Virus record (IMG/VR): IMGVR_UViG_3300031521_000118
Span: 1-45,265 of that record
DNA: 45,265 bases
Strand: one strand, 5' to 3'
Origin: a virus
A program made the position numbers and the translations under genes. The notes below the pieces were generated by a model, which did not search any database, had not been told where the DNA came from, and saw only the letters and a program-made list of their open reading frames with translations. Shown piece by piece: positions 12,531 to 43,982 of the stretch; within the stretch, counting starts at the first letter, position 1, and each line of letters starts with the position of its first letter.

Positions 12531-12570
12531 TTATTTTATATTTTATTTTATTTAGTTTATGGTAATAAGT

Positions 12571-12590
12571 TTTTTATATATACTTAAAAT
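12571..12590 (+). promoter_or_regulatory. Late-type promoter for endonuclease gene
   Basis: TTTTTATATATACTTAAAAT, ten bases before the ATG at 12601. The same word occurs at 44031-44050 and, in part, at 7155-7185. Its presence argues for the 12601 start, not the in-frame ATG at 12559, which would put the promoter inside the gene. Confidence 0.6.
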
Positions 12591-12600
12591 AAAAATAAAT

Positions 12601-13500
12601 ATGAAAACAAATAATGTTTGGACAAAAGAAAAATGTATTGAAGAAGCATTAAAATATAAAACTAAAAATGAATTTAGAATAAAATGCACACAGGCATATG
12701 GTACATCAATAAGAAACGAATGGATATATGAGGTTTGTGCTCACATGAGAAGAAATAAATCATATGTTTGGTCCAAAGAATTTTGTCAAGATGAAGCATT
12801 AAAATTTAATACTAGAAATGAATTTAATAAAAAATCGCATTATATTTATAGAATGTCATTAAAAAATGAATGGATAGATGATATTTGTTCTCATATGATA
12901 TCTATTGGTGATATATATAGAAGATGTATTTATGTTTATGAGTTTTCTGATAATTCTGCTTATATAGGATTAACCAGTGATTTAGATAGAAGATTTAATG
13001 AACATTTAAGAAAAGGTACAGTTTATAAACATATACAAAAAAACAATAGTTATAACTTTAAAAGATTAACAGAATATGTTGATGTAAATTTATCAAAAAA
13101 ATTAGAAGAAGAATATGTAAATAAATATAAAAATAATGGTTGGAAAATTTTAAATAAATATAAAACAGGAAGTATAGGCGGGCAAAAGTTTTGGACAAAA
13201 AATAGATGTCAAAGTGAAGCAGATAAGTTTATAACTAGAGGGGAATTTAAGAAAAGTTTACCATCTGCATATTTAATATCATTAAAAAATAAATGGTTGG
13301 ATGAAATATGTGTTCATATGATAGAAATAAAAAAGAGAAAGAACTATTGGACAAAAAATATGTGTAAAGAAGAGGCATTAAAATATAAGACACGATCAGA
13401 ATTTTTTAAAAAATGTGTTAGCGCATATTCTAAATCACATAAAAATGGTTGGCTTAATGAAGTTTGTTCTCATATGAATAAAAACAATAATAAAAATTAA
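12601..13500 (+). CDS. GIY-YIG endonuclease flanked by four W-x-C-HM repeats
   Basis: About 299 residues. A GIY-YIG nuclease core lies in the middle (CIYVYEFSDNSAYIGLTSDL, then RRFNEHLRK; about residues 107-190). Two repeats of about 45 residues precede it and two follow. Each repeat reads W[TS]K-x-x-C/R-x-x-EA-x-KF/Y-x-T-R/K-x-EF ... AY/IY ... S-x-KN-x-W[LI]-x-[ED][IV]C-x-HM. Such repeats are likely DNA-contacting. This is a free-standing homing-type endonuclease, probably mobile. It lies on the plus strand between minus-strand genes, with its own promoter. The inferred role is to cut an allele lacking it. Confidence 0.85.
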   Translation: MKTNNVWTKEKCIEEALKYKTKNEFRIKCTQAYGTSIRNEWIYEVCAHMRRNKSYVWSKEFCQDEALKFNTRNEFNKKSHYIYRMSLKNEWIDDICSHMISIGDIYRRCIYVYEFSDNSAYIGLTSDLDRRFNEHLRKGTVYKHIQKNNSYNFKRLTEYVDVNLSKKLEEEYVNKYKNNGWKILNKYKTGSIGGQKFWTKNRCQSEADKFITRGEFKKSLPSAYLISLKNKWLDEICVHMIEIKKRKNYWTKNMCKEEALKYKTRSEFFKKCVSAYSKSHKNGWLNEVCSHMNKNNNKN

Positions 13501-26499: not shown

Positions 26500-26533
26500 C
26501 TTTATCTATCTTATTTGTTTTATTACTTGGATA

Positions 26534-26565
26534 CAAAGATAGTAATAATAATTAAATCTACCAAA
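26534..26565 (-). promoter_or_regulatory. Host-type promoter, near-perfect
   Basis: Minus strand TTTG (26562-26565), 20 bases, TATCTTTG (26534-26541). Best match to the Bacteroidetes consensus in the window. About 35 bases before the exported-protein ATG. Confidence 0.75.
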
Positions 26566-26573
26566 TAAACATA

Positions 26574-26789
26574 TCAATAAATCCACTCAGAGTCTTTTGG
26601 TGGTGAATTATATTTATACTTATGTTTATCACCACTATATTCAACACCTATAAAATGAAAATCATTATTCTTCAATTTAAAGCCAATAAAAGCTTCAATT
26701 CCAGTTTTTGATAATTCATTATCATGTATATAAAAAACCTCAAATGAGTGCGAACCTTCAGGTATTATATTTAAATTAAAATCTGTCAT
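26574..26789 (-). CDS. Unknown 71-aa protein
   Basis: MTDFNLNIIPEGSHSFEVFY, FIGFKLKNNDFHFIGVEYSG; a small beta domain. ATGA-coupled to the gene upstream. Ends SEWIY. Function unknown. Confidence 0.74.
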   Translation of the reverse strand: MTDFNLNIIPEGSHSFEVFYIHDNELSKTGIEAFIGFKLKNNDFHFIGVEYSGDKHKYKYNSPPKDSEWIY

Positions 26790-27148
26790 ATTATTTTAAC
26801 AATTTCTTTTAATTTTAATTTTCTAAGGACTTTAATTGGCGGTTGTATATCATTATAAAGTTCAACAATTTTAACTGAGTGAACATTGACATTAACTCTT
26901 AGATAAATATATTGTGTATTTAATAAATTAAAAGCATCTTTATATGTATCAAAATATCTTGGGTATTCTACTATAATACCATAATCATCTAAATAATTTA
27001 TAGTATTTAAGTATATTGGTGAGCAATTCAAATTCAAACCACTACCATTATATGTTGGAGATGACTCTAATCTAACATCACCAGATACTCTATGACTAAC
27101 AACAACTTCAATTGCATATTTTTTATAAATAGTGCTATTCATTATCAT
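26786..27148 (-). CDS. TAG B protein, 120 aa
   Basis: MIMNSTIYKKYAIEVVVSHR; Met3 is an alternative start. Strand-rich; ends IKVLRKLKLKEIVKII, TAG B. Lies just downstream of the tRNA terminator. Confidence 0.78.
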   Translation of the reverse strand: MIMNSTIYKKYAIEVVVSHRVSGDVRLESSPTYNGSGLNLNCSPIYLNTINYLDDYGIIVEYPRYFDTYKDAFNLLNTQYIYLRVNVNVHSVKIVELYNDIQPPIKVLRKLKLKEIVKII

Positions 27149-27205
27149 ATTATAAAAATTCTTTTTTTAATATATGAAAATAAACGATATTTGTTTTATA
27201 TAAAT

Positions 27206-27239
27206 AAAAAAAGCATAGAAAATATTTTCTATGCTTTTT
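27206..27239 (-). terminator. Terminator of the tRNA unit
   Basis: Long palindrome AAAAAGCATAGAAAAT / ATTTTCTATGCTTTTT directly after the tRNA 3' end. T-rich on both sides, so it may work in both directions. Confidence 0.8.
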
Positions 27240-27240
27240 G

Positions 27241-27311
27241 TGTTCACTGTGGGGGTCGAACCCACATTAACTGTTTTAGGGACAGCTGCCCTGCCATTGA
27301 ACGAAGCGAAC
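27241..27311 (-). tRNA. Amber-suppressor-type tRNA, anticodon CUA
   Basis: A complete cloverleaf reads on the minus strand. Acceptor GTTCGCT/AGTGAAC (one G-U); D arm GTTC-AATGGCA-GGGC with A14, GG and A21 in place. Anticodon arm GCTGT-CCCTAAA-ACAGT; T arm GTGGG-TTCGACC-CCCAC; discriminator A73. No CCA is encoded. The central loop bases give anticodon CUA (27277-27279), which reads UAG. Position 33 is C where U is almost universal, which should weaken decoding. The amino acid cannot be read from identity elements. The PTH2-like gene with an in-frame TAG lies just upstream in the same unit. Confidence 0.88.
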
Positions 27312-27320
27312 GATTAACTT

Positions 27321-27428
27321 GGTAAACTCTTTCTTAGACTTGAATGTTTTATACATTTTCCACTACGGAGGTAAGGATAGTTAAAACCTTAGCATGACCG
27401 TGCGGGGTTTCACCGCTTTTAATTTACC
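27321..27428 (-). ncRNA. Candidate structured RNA between PTH2 gene and tRNA
   Basis: More GC-rich than its surroundings. Minus strand: 7-bp closing helix GGTAAAT / GTTTACC (27422-27428 with 27321-27327). Inside are three hairpins: GCGG-TGAAACC-CCGC, a two-part helix ACGG..TAAGG / CCTTA..CCGT, and AATGT-ATAAA-ACATT. It matches no RNA class I know. It may be a processing or regulatory element of the tRNA transcript. Confidence 0.4.
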
Positions 27429-27437
27429 TTTATTTTT

Positions 27438-27761
27438 TTAAAGTATTGCTACTTCAATGGGTTTTGCTTCCCATTTTTTTAAATTACGAAATAGAGAATC
27501 ATTTCCTTCTACTGCTAACGCAGTTGGTATATTTCCTAAATCTGGTTCCTAGAACACTGTAAAATTTAAACCTTTATGTTTTAATTTAAAAATCCATTTT
27601 TCAATGTCCGCAGAAAGATAAATAAGATATTGATTATTCCACGTTTGTGTATCTTTATTATCAATCAGCCATCCAGCTACTGCATGTCCACCTTGAACAC
27701 AGCCATAAACTGTTTCCAGTTTGCTATCAATCAGCACAAACAGCTTCTTCTTGTATTCCAT
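27438..27761 (-). CDS. PTH2-like peptidyl-tRNA hydrolase with in-frame amber codon
   Basis: From ATG 27759-27761 the first 70 codons read MEYKKKLFVLIDSKLETVYG, CVQGGHAVAGWLIDN (His26 in the Q-x-x-HA motif of PTH2) and KWIFKLKHKGLNFTVF. Then comes TAG at 27549-27551. The same frame continues EPDLGNIPTALAVEGNDSLF and RNLKKWEAKPIEVAIL to TAA at 27438. The (F)-x-EPDL-N-x-x-TA-x-A block is the conserved PTH2 C-terminal half, so TAG sits at a variable residue between two conserved halves. Full length is 107 residues, as in phage PTH2-like proteins. The family frees tRNA from stalled peptidyl-tRNA, although phage copies may have other roles. Readthrough needs the CUA tRNA about 240 bases downstream. 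Confidence 0.85.
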
Positions 27762-28038
27762 ATTTTTGAACTAATTTGTCAATATCAAGTTTATATATTG
27801 ATATCTGCCAAGTGTTTTCATTATTTTTGGTTTCAAAGGTACTAAGATCTCGTCCTTTTAATACATGATAAGCTGCATATAGCAGTCTTAATTTGTGTCG
27901 GTTTTCACTGTGTAAGTACGCAGCTTTCCATGGTTCCATTACTCGTTCACCTTTAATGTGAACTGTCTTTCTCTGATTTCTAAGAGATACTTGATTCTCT
28001 GCAAGTTTTTTTATTTCTTCTTTTATTGTAGTTTTCAT
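27727..28038 (-). CDS. Conserved phage hypothetical upstream of PTH2
   Basis: 103 residues: MKTTIKEEIKKLAENQVSLR, HIKGERVMEPWKAAYLHSEN, RHKLRLLYAAYHVLKGRDLS. The 'NQR-K-T-V-h...MEPW-A' form recurs in hypothetical proteins of Bacteroidetes phages. Overlaps the start of the PTH2-like gene by 35 bases, so the two are probably co-translated. Function unknown. Confidence 0.8.
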   Translation of the reverse strand: MKTTIKEEIKKLAENQVSLRNQRKTVHIKGERVMEPWKAAYLHSENRHKLRLLYAAYHVLKGRDLSTFETKNNENTWQISIYKLDIDKLVQKYGIQEEAVCAD

Positions 28039-28171
28039 ATTATTTATTATTTTTTTATTGTTATTAATTTGTTAATTATTAGCTGTTTAAAAAATAATAA
28101 ATGGTGATCCTCTACCAAAAGAACAAACCTAATGCTTAGTTTTCTTCATAATTTTTTGATTTTTTTTAATT

Positions 28172-28195
28172 AAACGTAGAACTATTTCTACGCTT
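28172..28195 (-). terminator. Weak hairpin, possible terminator
   Basis: Minus strand GCGTAG-AAATAGTT-CTACGT followed by TTAATT. It lies after the small membrane-protein gene. The rest of 28039-28203 shows no gene or other element that I can support. Confidence 0.35.
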
Positions 28196-28203
28196 CTCAC
28201 TTA

Positions 28204-28368
28204 TTAAATAAGTGGTTTCCTTACAATGAGATAGATTGGTAAAAATACTATCATGAGTAAAAAAACTCCGATACCCCAACCAAATCCATTCATTCCTCTT
28301 TTGTTTGCATCTTCAGCAACAAAATATGCTACTATCAATGCAATAATCATACCTAAAAATGCGCTCAT
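28204..28368 (-). CDS. Small two-TM protein, 54 aa
   Basis: ATG 28366-28368. MSAFLGMIIALIVAYFVAED, then basic NKRGMNGFGWGIG, then VFLLMIVFLPIYLIVRKPLI: two hydrophobic helices around a short basic Gly-rich loop. Layout resembles the small PLDc_N-type membrane domain. Role unknown; below common gene-finder length. Confidence 0.68.
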   Translation of the reverse strand: MSAFLGMIIALIVAYFVAEDANKRGMNGFGWGIGVFLLMIVFLPIYLIVRKPLI

Positions 28369-28410
28369 AAATCTTTTTATTTTTATAATAATTTTATTTA
28401 TAAAAGTTTA

Positions 28411-29304
28411 TCAAAACACTAAACTACTTTTCGTTTCCCATCTAAAATATAACTTTGAGTTTTCACGCAAAATTAAATATTTATATGTATCATGATTTTG
28501 CTGACTCATACAGTCATCATCAATAACCATAGACATTTCTTCAACGTTATAGATTTTTGGACCAAATGGTAGATATCCTAAGAAATCACCATATTTTTTA
28601 ACCATAATTGTCAATCTGTCATAAAAATCAACGCTTGCATTTTCACCAATCCAATTATCAATATCATTGTTCAATTTAGATTTGTATAACTTTCTGAATG
28701 TCACTTGATCTGCTCCAAGTTCTTTACATCTTTCAATAACAGAAGAAACTGTCAGATTGTCATAATCGTTAACAAGATTCAAAGATAACCTCAAATTAAA
28801 ACCATATTTTTTGACAAGTTTTATAACTTCAAAAACATTAAATTTTAATTTTTCAGCACAGCCAATAAGTTCAATATTTCTTTCATTATCAAAGATGTTT
28901 GATATTGAAAAAGATATAGTTGTAACACCATTATCTCTTAAGTGTATCAAGTACTCGTCATCAAGTAGAACACCAGTTGTTTGAACTTCGATACTCTTAA
29001 ACGGTGTTTGTAATTTTGAATTAACAGAATAGAAAAAATCCAAAAAGTTTCTATTTTGAACTGGTTCTCCTGTTCCAGTTAAAACAACAACATTACATCC
29101 ATTATCACGTGCATATTGCAATCTATTGTAATAATCATTATATTCTGGTAATCCAGCAAGTGGTACACCATTATATGACATTTTAACAATTTTACTAATC
29201 TTATCTTCATATGGATTAGTATGAGTTCTGCTTACACAGAATTTGCACTTATTTACGCAACTGTTGTTTGTTGGTACTACAATACTTAAGCTTTGAATAT
29301 TCAT
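28411..29304 (-). CDS. Radical SAM enzyme
   Basis: 297 residues. CVNKCKFC at 16-23 gives the three cluster cysteines in C-x3-C-x2-C spacing. The SAM-binding GTGEP follows at 77-81 (TGTGEP), with IEVQTTGVLLDD and ISFSISNIFDN as later beta/alpha units. The 4Fe-4S cluster cleaves SAM to start radical chemistry. The substrate is unknown; the length fits a single-domain enzyme (a MoaA-like partial barrel). Phage copies may modify nucleotides or peptides. TGA stop. Confidence 0.87.
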   Translation of the reverse strand: MNIQSLSIVVPTNNSCVNKCKFCVSRTHTNPYEDKISKIVKMSYNGVPLAGLPEYNDYYNRLQYARDNGCNVVVLTGTGEPVQNRNFLDFFYSVNSKLQTPFKSIEVQTTGVLLDDEYLIHLRDNGVTTISFSISNIFDNERNIELIGCAEKLKFNVFEVIKLVKKYGFNLRLSLNLVNDYDNLTVSSVIERCKELGADQVTFRKLYKSKLNNDIDNWIGENASVDFYDRLTIMVKKYGDFLGYLPFGPKIYNVEEMSMVIDDDCMSQQNHDTYKYLILRENSKLYFRWETKSSLVF

Positions 29305-35663: not shown

Positions 35664-35924
35664 CTATGCTTCTCTAGTATCCCAATTTAAAATCACAAAA
35701 TCGTCATTCAAGCTCAATATTGGAAAACAATTTTTCAATACTCCCGTTTCAGTTATTGTGTGAAAAATTACATCTTTAACATAATCTTTCTTACTAAAAT
35801 ATGATGCTTTATTTTGCCATGCATCAAAATAAATAACATCACTTTTATCTTTAACTTTAATTTTCAATTTATTTGAAGTTAAAAGTTTTCCAGTGTACAC
35901 TTTATTATTTAATTCTACTTTCAT
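35664..35924 (-). CDS. Unknown 86-aa protein ending in TAG
   Basis: MKVELNNKVYTGKLLTSNKL, FDAWQNKASYFSKKDYVKDV, LSLNDDFVILNWDTREA then TAG (35664-35666). Readthrough would fuse it in frame to MENDNLK and on through the 55-residue gene. Shares the 'YFDAW' piece with 35929-36228, so the two may be related. Function unknown. Confidence 0.77.
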   Translation of the reverse strand: MKVELNNKVYTGKLLTSNKLKIKVKDKSDVIYFDAWQNKASYFSKKDYVKDVIFHTITETGVLKNCFPILSLNDDFVILNWDTREA

Positions 35925-38596: not shown

Positions 38597-39376
38597 ATGG
38601 GAATAATATATTTAACAACAAATAAAATAAACAATAGAAAATATATTGGTGTTGACTCTCAAAATAATAAATCATATTTTGGCTCAGGTAAAGCTATAAG
38701 ATTGGCTATTAAAAAATATGGAACTAAAAGCTTCACAAAAGAAATATTAGAAGAAAGTGATGATAAAGAATATTTATTTGAAAGAGAAAAATATTATATT
38801 GAAATATATGATGCTATAAACTCTAATGAATATTATAATATGGCTGAAGGCGGTAAAGGCGGCGCTGGAACTTTGGCAACAGAAGAAGCTAAAGAAGCAC
38901 ATAGAATTGGCTGTAAGAAAGGATTAGAAAAAATATCTGAATTAAGACGAGGTAAAACTTACGAAGAAATATATGGTGATAGAGCAGATGAAGAAAAAGA
39001 AAAAAGAAGATTAGCTGGTTTAGGTAAAAAATATGATGAAGAAAGAACAAAGAAAAGTGGAGATGGCCATAAAGGCCAAATACCTTGGAATAAAGGCAAA
39101 AAAGGATTACAAATACCTTGGAATAAAGGACTAATAACACTACAAGAACCATGGCAAAAAGGTAAAAAATATGTAACAAAGAAATATATTTTAACTCTTT
39201 TAAATAATGAAGAAATTGAATTCTTAGGTAGAGACAGTTTAGAAAAATATATAAAAGAAACAATAAATCCTACTCTTATTCAGAGTAGGATCAATATTAT
39301 CAATTTAATAAATACTAATTTTGATAAAGGATTTTATTTAAATATTATAAAATTAGAAAAACCATTAATTCTTTAA
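38597..39376 (+). CDS. GIY-YIG homing endonuclease
   Basis: 259 residues. Core at the N-terminus: GIIYLTTNKINNRKYIGVDS (GIY...YIG), R-type catalytic region AIRLAIKKYGTKSFTKEILE, and EREKYYIEIYDAINSNEYYN with the catalytic Glu. Then GGKGGAG. The C-terminal part has two DNA-binding-like segments with 'PWNKG' (IPWNKGKKGLQIPWNKGLIT), the NUMOD-type repeat. Seg-like, free-standing. Probably mobile; its C-terminus overlaps the thioredoxin gene on the other strand by four bases. Confidence 0.88.
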   Translation: MGIIYLTTNKINNRKYIGVDSQNNKSYFGSGKAIRLAIKKYGTKSFTKEILEESDDKEYLFEREKYYIEIYDAINSNEYYNMAEGGKGGAGTLATEEAKEAHRIGCKKGLEKISELRRGKTYEEIYGDRADEEKEKRRLAGLGKKYDEERTKKSGDGHKGQIPWNKGKKGLQIPWNKGLITLQEPWQKGKKYVTKKYILTLLNNEEIEFLGRDSLEKYIKETINPTLIQSRINIINLINTNFDKGFYLNIIKLEKPLIL

Positions 39377-40924: not shown

Positions 40925-42400
40925 ATGAAGACCGTAAAAAATTATGACAAATTTTCAGAACAATATAGATTGAATGAAAATTTATTAGGTAAAGCCTGGG
41001 ATTCGATTGCAAATTTTTTCAAAAATAAATTTAAAAAAGCGTCATGGCTTTATTATATTTTATATTTAAAAAAATCTGGACAATTACCAAAAGAAAAAGT
41101 TGAAATTATCGTTCCATCAGATTATCCTATCGACGAAATTCCTACTGAAAAAGAAGTTGAAATGACAGCAGAATCATTAAACACAACAATTCGTGTTTCA
41201 AAGCTTAATGAAGACGTTATTGATTTGCAACACAGTGATCCAAACATCAGAAATGTCGATGTAGAAGAATTGATGAATGAAATTATTACTATCTACGAGA
41301 TGAATGCTGATAGAGTAGAAGAAGGTAAACCAAGAACAAAAAATGATGCACTTTTTATTTGGGGTGCTCCTGGAATTGGTAAAACTGAAATTTTAAGTCA
41401 AGCAGCAAACAAATTGGGTTGTGTTGTCATAGAATGGCACTTATCTCAAATTGAGCCTACTGACTTTAGAGGTGTTCCAAAAATTGAAAATACAGTTAAA
41501 GGTAGTGTAGATCCAAAAGATGAAAGAACAGTATCTAAATTGCCAGCTATGTTCCCAACAGATGATGGTGTTAATGGTAAAGGTGGTATTATGTTCTTTG
41601 ATGAAATCAATAGAGCACCTAAAATGGTACTTTCTGCAGCATTATCATTATGTTTGAATGGTAGAATTGGTGATTATACTTTACCAGAACATTGGATAGT
41701 TATTGCAGCAGGTAATAGACCTGAAGATTTAGGTGGTGCAGTTGCAACCACAATTGAACCAGCTTTGGCTAACCGTTTCTCGCACATTAATTATGCACCA
41801 ACATTAGAATCATGGACTAAATGGGCAACACAAAAACAAGACATTAATCCTGACCTTATTGCATTCTTACACTTTAATAAATCATATTTCCATAAATTGG
41901 ATCCTGATAAAGAAATAATGGCTTGGCCTTCACCTCGTACTTGGGAAATGGCTTCTCATAAAGATTATTTCAAAAGAGGAAAAGATTGGCACAACAAACT
42001 TCCTTATGATAGAGTTCAAGCAACATATACCGATTTAGTTGGAGCAGAAGCTGCAATTGCATTTGTATCATATTTGAAATTGAAAGAATATTATAATGAA
42101 AAAGATGTTGAAGAAGTTTACAAAAATGGTAAAAAAGCTAAAAAGGTTCCAACCAAATTAGATGAAGCCAGAGCAGCATTAGCTTCAATTGCATTCTTTA
42201 AAAAAGGTGAAGATTTGACAGTTAAAGAACTTGAAAATATCTTAGAATTTGCTTTAGATTTACCAAGTTTGGAATCTAAAACATCTTTGATAGCATTTCT
42301 TAGAATGGTTCACCCTGAAATCAAAGAAAAAGATCCTTGGAAAGCAATTTATTGGGAGTATGTTAAAAAATGGCATCTTGATGTAAAGGCTTTAGAATAA
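40925..42400 (+). CDS. MoxR-family AAA+ ATPase
   Basis: 491 residues. Walker A GAPGIGKTE at about 146-154, Walker B MFFDEINRAP at about 222-231, sensor 1 AAGNRPEDLGG near 262-272; MoxR type with arginine finger in NRF. About 90 residues precede the ATPase domain, beginning MKTVKNYDKFSEQYRLNENL, a start with L-N-E at 16-18. MoxR ATPases pair with VWA proteins to remodel or mature other proteins; the VWA partner follows at once. Late-type promoters; own terminator at 42421. Confidence 0.9.
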   Translation: MKTVKNYDKFSEQYRLNENLLGKAWDSIANFFKNKFKKASWLYYILYLKKSGQLPKEKVEIIVPSDYPIDEIPTEKEVEMTAESLNTTIRVSKLNEDVIDLQHSDPNIRNVDVEELMNEIITIYEMNADRVEEGKPRTKNDALFIWGAPGIGKTEILSQAANKLGCVVIEWHLSQIEPTDFRGVPKIENTVKGSVDPKDERTVSKLPAMFPTDDGVNGKGGIMFFDEINRAPKMVLSAALSLCLNGRIGDYTLPEHWIVIAAGNRPEDLGGAVATTIEPALANRFSHINYAPTLESWTKWATQKQDINPDLIAFLHFNKSYFHKLDPDKEIMAWPSPRTWEMASHKDYFKRGKDWHNKLPYDRVQATYTDLVGAEAAIAFVSYLKLKEYYNEKDVEEVYKNGKKAKKVPTKLDEARAALASIAFFKKGEDLTVKELENILEFALDLPSLESKTSLIAFLRMVHPEIKEKDPWKAIYWEYVKKWHLDVKALE

Positions 42401-42420
42401 GATTATTTATAAAAAATAGA

Positions 42421-42447
42421 AATCCTGATAAAAAATATCAGGATTTT
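42421..42447 (+). terminator. Terminator after MoxR gene
   Basis: AAATCCTGAT-AAAAAAT-ATCAGGATTT stem-loop followed by a T-run. Confidence 0.8.
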
Positions 42448-42461
42448 TATTTTTTGATATT

Positions 42462-42482
42462 TGATATTTTATATATAATGAA
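42462..42482 (+). promoter_or_regulatory. Late-type promoter for VWA gene
   Basis: TTGATATTTTATATATAATGA just after the terminator, about 22 bases before the ATG at 42504. Confidence 0.5.
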
Positions 42483-42503
42483 TAAAAATAAAAACAATTA
42501 ATT

Positions 42504-43982
42504 ATGTTAACAAAATTTAATAATTATGAAACACTAATAGCATTGAACGAAATGATAGAAAATGCTGTTGATAAAACCGCACTTAATAAGGTTAGAAGAT
42601 GCTTCACTCAAATTTTAACTCAGTTTGGATTCTTTGCTGATTTATTATTTCAATTGAATATTATAGAAGCTCACCCTGGTACTGGTGTTGAAACTATGGC
42701 AACTGATGGTAAATCTATAAGTTATAGTCCAGGATTTGTTAATAAATTGACAGAAGCTGAAGTTGTATTTGTTATAATACACGAAGTTATGCATAATGCA
42801 AATTTTCACTTTGTTAGACAAGGTGGTAGAGATCATGAATTATGGAATCAAGCAGCAGATTATGCTATAAATATTCAAATTGATGATATGAAAAAAGATA
42901 TGAATAGTAGTGTATTAGCTCCACCTAAAAATATTTTGTTAGATGAAAAATATCGTGGTATGAGAGCAGAACAAATCTATGATATACTTGCAAAACAATC
43001 TCCACCAAAAAAACAAGGACAGGGTCAAGGACAGGGTCAAGGACAAGGACAGGGTCAAGGACAAGGACAGGGTCAAGGACAAGGACAGGGTCAAGGACAA
43101 GGACAGGGTCAAGGACAACCAGGACAAGGACAGGGTCAAGGACAACCAGGACAAGGACAGGGTCAAGGACAACCAGGACAAGGACAAGGCGGAGGAGGTA
43201 CACCACAAGGTGACTTACGAGCACCAGGTTCATTGGATGGAACAGGTGATACTATTTATGAAGGTAACACAGAATTAAATGATGCAAAAACCGAAGCTGA
43301 ATTAGAAAAAAAATGGAGAGATATTAGAAATAATGCTGCTGCAAAAAATCAAGGTACAGGTTCAAGCTCATTAGACAGATGGTTAAGAAAGGCAAATAAA
43401 CCAAAAATTAATTGGAGAGCAGAACTTAAAAAATTTGTTGCACAAGTTTATGACGAACTTGATTATGCATATTCTAATAAAAGATATATTTGGCAAGATA
43501 TGCACTTACCTGGACCAAAAGAAGCAGACAAATCATCTTATCAAGATGTTGTAATTGCTATAGATACATCAGGATCAATTGGTGAAGAAACCTTATCAAA
43601 ATTTGCAGCAGAAATGATGAAGCTATTTAAAACATATAGTGTTGTAAAATGTCATATTGTATGGTGTGATTCAAGAATATGTTCAGTTCAAACTTTTGAT
43701 GTTGCTGATAAGAGTTTTAAAATGGATAAACTAAGACCTTGCGGTGGAGGTGGAACAAGCTTCAAACCACCATTTGAATGGGTACAGAAAAATATAATAA
43801 AAAAAGGTAAAGTACCAGCATTCTTTATATATTTTACTGATGCTTATGGTGATGCGCCATCTGTTGGAGAATATGGACTTAGATCTTACGCTAATAGAGT
43901 TTTATGGGTAATAACTGAAAATGATAATGCATCTAATATTAAATTTGGTAAGAAAATTTATATTGATAAAATGCCAGGATAA
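42504..43982 (+). CDS. VWA-like metallopeptidase (DUF2201 type)
   Basis: 492 residues. The N-terminal zinc site is IHEVMH-N at about 92-98 (HExxH). A long Gly-Gln/Pro repeat follows at about 171-228, then a VWA domain with MIDAS DTSGS at about 352-358 (VVIAIDTSGSIGEE) and a CHIVWCDS strand. The family (DUF2201, VWA-like with a metallopeptidase N-terminal domain) pairs with MoxR ATPases. It starts MLTKFNNYETLIALNEMIEN, again with L-N-E near 14-16. Predicted chaperone/protease pair for a late substrate. Confidence 0.9.
   Translation: MLTKFNNYETLIALNEMIENAVDKTALNKVRRCFTQILTQFGFFADLLFQLNIIEAHPGTGVETMATDGKSISYSPGFVNKLTEAEVVFVIIHEVMHNANFHFVRQGGRDHELWNQAADYAINIQIDDMKKDMNSSVLAPPKNILLDEKYRGMRAEQIYDILAKQSPPKKQGQGQGQGQGQGQGQGQGQGQGQGQGQGQGQGQGQPGQGQGQGQPGQGQGQGQPGQGQGGGGTPQGDLRAPGSLDGTGDTIYEGNTELNDAKTEAELEKKWRDIRNNAAAKNQGTGSSSLDRWLRKANKPKINWRAELKKFVAQVYDELDYAYSNKRYIWQDMHLPGPKEADKSSYQDVVIAIDTSGSIGEETLSKFAAEMMKLFKTYSVVKCHIVWCDSRICSVQTFDVADKSFKMDKLRPCGGGGTSFKPPFEWVQKNIIKKGKVPAFFIYFTDAYGDAPSVGEYGLRSYANRVLWVITENDNASNIKFGKKIYIDKMPG
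43017..43190 (+). repeat. GQ-rich coding repeat in VWA gene
   Basis: Tandem GGACAGGGTCAAGGACAA type units encode GQGQGQ, ending with three GQPGQGQ modules. Frames on both strands stay open here, giving false ORFs; only the Gly-Gln frame is real. Length is likely to vary between relatives. Confidence 0.85.

Follow-up and report, generated by a model that had tools for sequence, protein, structure and literature searches.

An In-Frame Stop Codon as a Probable Gate in Phage PTH2-Like Genes, Paired with a Stop-Reading tRNA

Introduction

The locus described here raises the question of whether a phage gene interrupted by a stop codon is still expressed in full, and by what means. The window, i.e., the whole stretch of 45,265 nucleotides that was analysed (IMG/VR record IMGVR_UViG_3300031521_000118, positions 1 to 45,265), carries on its minus strand a gene for a PTH2-like peptidyl-tRNA hydrolase at 27438–27761, which comprises 107 codons when TAG is counted as sense. 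The gene opens with an ATG at 27761 and runs for 70 codons to a TAG at 27551–27549; the same frame then continues for 36 codons to a TAA that ends at 27438. A preliminary description of this DNA had given exactly this structure and had attributed the full enzyme to UAG readthrough.

The reading favoured here, to which we assign a probability of about 0.8, is that the gene is stop-gated: its conserved second part would be reached solely through decoding of UAG by a CUA tRNA encoded downstream, and the two genes would form a widely conserved module of large phages. Neither the CUA tRNA nor the generality of the arrangement figured in the preliminary description.

The Interrupted Gene and Its Predicted Product

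Codon usage is coding-like both upstream and downstream of the TAG, which is codon 71 and is followed by a GAA codon, so that the next base is G. A structural model of the joined protein, with Q at the TAG position, was obtained with AlphaFold2 from an alignment and reached a mean pLDDT of 91.2. Foldseek returned 13 PDB matches for this model at E ≤ 0.001, of which 12 were chains of 2zv3, 3erj, 1wn2, 1q7s and 1xty, all known or structural-genomics PTH2 entries. The predicted fold of the window protein is thus that of PTH2. Searches by sequence profile gave less: Pfam and NCBIfam yielded no useful family for the window protein and its relatives, a profile search against PDB sequences returned nothing, and the PF01981 cut-off of 23 bits was reached by neither the window protein nor any of 30 close members, as against 31.3, 39.2 and 28.5 bits for distant members of the same family. 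The assignment to PTH2 made from the letters alone therefore stands by fold and distant kinship, and not by the Pfam score of the protein itself.

In the alignment of the 30 members, Q23, H26, E72-P73-D74-L75 and T80 are invariant, while the Lys expected from the GK motif of PTH2 is replaced in this subfamily, mostly by Cys. Since the EPDL residues and T80 all lie after the TAG, a 70-residue product would miss a conserved part, as had been anticipated. The residue at the TAG position varies across the alignment, in keeping with the earlier remark that the position before EPDL is variable. The TAG had also been placed at a domain joint; this does not hold, as the protein has a single domain and the TAG interrupts the strand that immediately precedes the EPDL motif.

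The contigs of L285, L299, L320 and L360, as well as phage Myrna, carry a second PF01981 match without an internal stop and with a much higher score (98–118 bits; 84 in the L320 contig). The gated, divergent PTH2 may be a specialised paralog.

The Adjacent tRNA and Neighbouring Features in the Window

A tRNA with the anticodon CUA, that of an amber suppressor, lies on the same strand at 27240–27311 and begins 126 nt downstream of the PTH2 stop. It was found by ARAGORN, for which it is the only tRNA in the 45 kb window, and it folds into a cloverleaf and scores as an ordinary tRNA in Rfam (49 bits at 27241–27311); the ARAGORN label "Pyl" merely names the CUA anticodon. Directly 3' of the tRNA, a terminator-like hairpin followed by a T run occupies 27207–27239 on the minus strand (z-score −5.21 for the fold of 27170–27250). 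Suppressor tRNAs associated with theta ribozymes have an HDV-like ribozyme at this place; among the Rfam families, no ribozyme matched the window element at gathering score.

The spacer between the PTH2 stop and the tRNA (27312–27437, minus strand; fold z-score −1.68) gave no Rfam match at gathering score besides the tRNA. It includes a segment, 27345–27425 on the minus strand, that is rich in G+C inside a window of 25% G+C and likewise matched no Rfam family. Upstream, a gene of 103 codons for which no family was found (27727–28038, minus strand) overlaps the start of PTH2 with its end, which suggests joint transcription of the two.

The window tRNA has C rather than U at position 33. This base was considered as a mark of PTH2-linked tRNAs and the idea was dropped: it occurs in 22 of 166 stop-reading tRNAs versus 50 of 1029 other tRNAs, which is a difference and no mark. 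Elsewhere in the window, an AAA ATPase gene followed by a DUF2201 metallopeptidase/VWA gene forms a MoxR-VWA-like pair at 40925–43982 on the plus strand. Two GIY-YIG endonuclease genes (12559–13500 and 38597–39376, both plus) lie on the strand opposite to most of their neighbours and resemble homing endonucleases.

Relatives and Census of Gates

A DNA similarity search of 26500–28500 against sequenced phages gave no match. A first scan of viral contigs, up to 413 kb in length, retrieved 37 loci, 34 of which have a stop-reading tRNA 14 to 1615 bases downstream of PTH2; in 33 loci it is the next tRNA. The linked tRNA reads UGA in L007, L023 and L026. The nearest relative found, L002, is 76% identical, lies on a separate 18.8 kb contig and has a TAG at the same codon as the window. 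In the other 36 of the 37 loci the site is a sense codon (K, R, Q, N, M or H). No relative among the 37 stops at this point without the EPDL part, a pattern that would have spoken against readthrough. An in-frame TAG is found elsewhere in some of these genes, at codon 6 in L027 and L032 and immediately ahead of the domain in L034 and L036.

The survey was then widened to viral contigs from six scans and sequenced phages from three protein searches, together with the regions retrieved from these. The 357 records with a PTH2 match fell into 203 clusters at 90% identity, a step that also merged duplicate contigs; as two of the scans contribute their best 80 of 178 and best 80 of 88 loci, the census is a sample. 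A gate was called hard when an in-frame stop precedes the domain with no ATG, GTG or TTG in between, and soft when an ATG precedes the stop and solely GTG or TTG follows it.

In this sample, TAG lies inside or just before the PTH2 domain in 101 of the 203 clusters (76 hard, 17 internal, 8 soft). The remainder comprises hard TAA (4) and hard TGA (3) gates, internal TGA (2), one cut gene and 92 ungated clusters. The hard class includes six doubtful clusters (3 TAG, 2 TAA, 1 TGA) in which the 12 codons upstream contain no start codon, which leaves 73 TAG, 2 TAA and 2 TGA gates with one. The 92 ungated clusters count against the proposed module; six of those so scored have a start and a TAG followed by a later ATG (L372, L278, L369, L314, L315 and L318). 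One locus, L301, looks like an artefact.

Among the 73 upstream TAG gates, 39 have the stop at codon 3, 19 at codon 4 and 4 at codon 2, while the 17 internal TAGs concentrate at domain positions 31–33, with others at 42–44, 54–57 and 64–66. Four PTH2 genes have two TAGs, the first close to the start and the second within the domain (L379, L290, L296 and L180 of LR756501).

Substitution patterns point to selection on the downstream part. Between the window and L002, dN after the TAG is 0.196 versus a dS of 0.323 over 26 codons, a comparison that is weak alone. In the group L107/L111/L112, gated at another codon, post-gate dN is 0.014–0.053 and dS 0.216–0.254 over 61 codons. By comparison of these sequences, purifying selection acts after the gate.

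Agreement Between Gate and Anticodon

A stop-reading tRNA occurs within the stretch examined, about 6 kb, in 91 gated and 71 ungated clusters and is absent from it in 19 gated and 21 ungated ones. Its presence at this range fails to separate gated from ungated clusters, and the 19 gated cases without it stand against the model. One further null is L391, a gated locus with no stop-reading tRNA among the 23 tRNAs of its 65 kb contig.

Where both are present, the gate codon matches the anticodon in 90 of the 91 clusters: 84 TAG/CUA pairs (one also with UUA), 3 TGA/UCA pairs and 3 TAA/UUA pairs, one of which, L099 from a Lak phage, has no clear start and is to be discounted. The sole mismatch is L028, from a code-4 phage. 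When labels were shuffled, with kinship ignored, none of 200,000 shuffles reached 90 and the maximum was 86. A tree of 199 sequences requires a minimum of 8 changes of gate type. In the closest pair with differing gates, L402 (ATG ACG TAA) has UUA as its only stop-reading tRNA in 24 kb and L375 (ATG ACG TAG) has CUA. Longer stretches give the same picture: UCA is the only such tRNA in the 124 kb of L285 (ATG AAG TGA), and UUA the only one in the 140 kb of L169, which has a TAA gate. Gate stop and anticodon change together and, at the level of sequence, behave like a compensatory change. With the tRNA adjacent in the window and TAG gates in about half of the clusters, this agreement lends strong comparative support to the earlier proposal that the full enzyme would be made by UAG readthrough.

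Another idea, that the tRNA beside PTH2 is invariably the one for the least used stop, was dropped, because the gate of L402 is TAA and this codon is the most frequent terminator in the 24 kb contig of L402 (38 of 54 terminal-like stops).

Gates in Cultured Phages

The arrangement recurs in cultured phages. GAP32 and CBB have a gate of the form start-A-Q-TAG, Arash start-L-TAG, ME3 start-T-TAG and pT24 start-K-TAG, each with a CUA tRNA within 4 kb. The annotated coding sequences of GAP32, CBB, Arash and ME3 start after the gate, and the stop gate thereby exposes an annotation error in these genomes. The complete GAP32 genome (358,663 bases) has 35 terminal-like TAGs and a single CUA tRNA. In XacN1, CM1, L276 and L289, PTH2 stands at the end of a longer gene gated at codon 3–5. 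A region resembling HD hydrolases is fused before PTH2 in these four and after it in pT24, all five being gated; the likeness is by motif only (Pfam HD E-value 0.056 in pT24, none in XacN1).

The cluster C mycobacteriophages Myrna, ScoobyDoobyDoo and IkeLoa have start, TAG and GTG in succession, i.e., a soft gate, with CUA tRNAs at 130–251 bases, and their annotated gene opens at the GTG. Such soft gates, with a GTG start available after the stop, count against the model. No gate is seen in RaK2, Hallingskeid or CC2, whose PTH2 genes lack any stop-reading tRNA within 5 kb. Atu_ph07 has three PTH2 matches without an internal stop, whose starts the profile does not place. A blind test of the model failed, as DLP_5 proved to have a CUA tRNA and no PTH2 by profile; gp070, beside the tRNA, has no Pfam match. 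The model can be tested in cultured phages, those of M. smegmatis among them.

Codon Context, Specificity and the Possibility of Neutral Coupling

Of the 73 upstream TAG gates, 50 have A as the next base, 20 have G, 3 have C and none has T, so that a purine follows in 70. By comparison, a purine starts 62% of the early codons of other genes (binomial p = 1.4 × 10−11, kinship ignored) and follows 75 of 137 terminal TAGs of gated loci (Fisher p = 3.1 × 10−11, kinship ignored); after internal TAGs it is found in 15 of 17. A 3' purine generally aids amber suppression (PMC6266110).

Specificity was assessed with a strict gate pattern across the 2.46 Mb of 203 representative loci. PTH2 showed the pattern with TAG 32 times, and once each with TGA and TAA, whereas all other genes together showed it 16 times with TAG, 17 with TGA and 17 with TAA. 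The 16 TAG cases outside PTH2 include three further PTH2 copies (L344, L362, L373), one PTH2 fusion (L178) and four in loci rich in coding TAGs (L007, L099 twice, L159).

These observations bear on the alternative that survives best, although we regard it as improbable: with the tRNA in place, the neighbouring gene could take up a TAG at no cost, and this TAG would then render the tRNA indispensable, with no regulatory use for the gate. Such selfish or neutral coupling would suit a gate for which the same tree of 199 sequences implies a minimum of 28 gains or losses, and it would suit a pair that persists across very different phages. It accounts poorly for other genes of the same loci, where TAG gates do not rise above the level of TAA and TGA, and for the preference of the gate for codon 3 and a following purine. 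Moreover, the ungated PTH2 genes with a stop-reading tRNA in the locus keep it equally near, at a median of 78 bases, so its persistence needs no gate. Of 96 loci with at least five tRNAs, 67 have a stop-reading tRNA as the one closest to PTH2, where 11.0 would be expected. This excess, with the proximity in ungated clusters, ties the enzyme to suppression itself.

Recoding, Restart and Sequence Error as Alternatives

If the window phage used code 15, the PTH2 TAG would be an ordinary sense codon. Every stop was therefore scored for coding-like codon usage on both sides, with TAA as the false-positive class. A CUA suppressor tRNA, as expected under code 15, is present in the window, and TAG is a rare terminator there (4 of 122 terminal-like stops). 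The 45 kb are also only part of the phage genome, and recoded phages may confine TAG to late genes (PMC13037316). Many genes with in-frame TAG, the other expectation, are found neither in the window nor in the TAG-gated contigs G002–G005. Only two window TAGs (27549 and 35664) are coding on both sides, versus 12 TAA. The corresponding counts in G002–G005 are 6, 2, 2 and 3 for TAG versus 9, 11, 22 and 14 for TAA, while TAG is terminal-like 20, 20, 22 and 17 times. The second window TAG, at 35664–35666 on the minus strand, ends an 86-codon ORF and is followed by 56 in-frame codons with a Met two codons downstream; it probably separates two adjacent genes.

Over the 101 TAG-gated loci, TAG accounts for 259 of 2135 terminal-like stops (TAA 1233, TGA 643) and, outside PTH2, for 49 stops that are coding on both sides (TAA 123, TGA 83). 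The latter number is somewhat high relative to terminal use, so a few other targets are possible. TAG is an ordinary terminator in the gated loci, and there is no genome-wide recoding.

Three contigs are truly recoded, namely G006 (225 TGAs coding on both sides), G009 (22 such TAGs) and G011 (24 such TAGs). Each has two stop-reading tRNAs, and the one linked to PTH2 (CUA in G006, UCA in G009 and G011) reads the stop that is not recoded, with a tRNA elsewhere matching the recoded one. The tRNA paired with PTH2 is thus distinct from the one that serves recoding. In L028, the PTH2 locus of G006 (166,911 bases), a recoded TGA stands at a conserved Trp of PTH2, with the UCA tRNA elsewhere in the contig. 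As TAA and TGA gates also occur with matching tRNAs, recoding of the window phage appears slightly less probable still than neutral coupling.

Very unlikely, in our estimate, is that M-x-TAG forms a tiny upstream ORF after which translation restarts at a weak non-AUG codon, with no suppression involved. ATT, which can start rare genes, is the codon after 25 of the 73 upstream gates, and soft gates have GTG directly after the TAG. Such a leader would leave unexplained the 17 clusters with internal TAGs, that of the window included, as well as the stop-anticodon agreement and the purine context. A pseudogene or sequencing error, as a lone stop in one metagenomic contig might suggest if taken alone, is already contradicted for the family by the same TAG in independent contigs (window and L002), by dN below dS after the gates, by the uniformity of all 24 multi-member gated clusters and by one gate common to GAP32-like phages from several hosts.

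A Proposed Role for the Stop-Gated Hydrolase

The gate, its pairing with the tRNA, the codon-anticodon agreement, the codon context, purifying selection downstream of the gate and the PTH2 fold emerge from comparison, and production of PTH2 protein by suppression in infected cells is, on the same grounds, very probable. Under the stop-gated model, the hydrolase would be made only when the partner tRNA outcompetes the release factor, and its synthesis would be licensed by that tRNA. Inefficient suppression and readthrough of host and phage genes should give rise to peptidyl-tRNAs that are stalled or dropped; if the hydrolase is made in step with suppression, its supply would track the need for peptidyl-tRNA recycling. 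We tentatively suggest, at rather less than even odds, that this is the purpose of the gate: hydrolase output would follow the success of the suppressor against the host release factor, and peptidyl-tRNAs would be recycled when, and only when, suppression runs.

More speculative by a small step is a stop-gated circuit, in which the adjoining hydrolase would be the main client of the suppressor tRNA and would clear the peptidyl-tRNAs that suppression generates, giving feedback. The usual gate would form a two- or three-codon minigene whose aborted product belongs to the drop-off class cleared by such hydrolases, and this leader may in addition sense hydrolase activity directly. Genes for tmRNA, another rescue device, lie in the same tRNA clusters as PTH2 and the stop-reading tRNA in L005, L006, L008, L010, L011, L012, L014, L016–L019, L021 and L038.

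Suppressor tRNAs and Peptidyl-tRNA Hydrolases in Described Phages

Both parts of the arrangement have been reported from the same phages or kinds of phage. In the accessible portions of the respective papers, the authors of XacN1 identified no target genes for its CUA tRNAs (PMC5852040), Atu_ph07 has a UCA tRNA and peptidyl-tRNA hydrolases (PMC6102473), and PTH2 occurs in the tRNA arrays of cluster C mycobacteriophages (PMC5966550); these portions leave the gate and the link between tRNA and hydrolase unmentioned. Phage Summit, of which DLP_5 is a close relative, has a suppressor tRNA whose purpose is given as unknown (PMC9022506). Pth is present in many phages (PMC12487901). Judged by title or the start of the abstract, no paper in the literature searched, mostly outside subscription papers, describes a phage PTH2 gene gated by a stop. 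A stop-gated partner gene is thus a likely target for the puzzling suppressor tRNAs of XacN1 and many other phages of standard code. If the model is true, stop-gated PTH2 would show a suppressor tRNA controlling gene expression in nature.

Comparison with Known Systems

Several known systems share elements with the proposed module. The bar minigenes of phage lambda yield peptidyl-tRNA that requires Pth (accessible part of PMC8012679). They resemble the gate in that a two-codon ORF is followed by a stop and peptidyl-tRNA hydrolase is relevant, and they differ in that, as far as the available text of PMC8012679 and PMC12487901 goes, no in-frame hydrolase gene is described after bar and no suppressor tRNA is involved. 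In phages recoded to code 15, a phage CUA tRNA decodes in-frame TAG, as would be the case here; according to the parts of PMC10879173 and PMC13037316 that were available, TAG occurs there in many structural and lysis genes, whereas here it is confined to essentially one family and still serves as a terminator. Where recoded phages have a PTH2-linked tRNA, it is a second one, for another stop. The main paper on phage recoding is reportedly that of Borges and others from 2022.

The gene for release factor RF2 (prfB) is read by a frameshift past UGA that is controlled by the gene's own release factor. There, as proposed here, the gene for a translation factor has a stop placed in frame early on, at which a contest is sensed; the device in prfB is a frameshift, whereas here a partner tRNA would suppress the stop and the product would be a hydrolase. 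Selenocysteine and pyrrolysine are inserted by dedicated tRNAs at stop codons of only a few genes, and the PTH2 module would share both features. Unlike in those systems, the position of the PTH2 gate is variable, falling in an N-terminal leader or in loops, and the type of stop is exchangeable; given these variable positions, the inserted residue seems unimportant.
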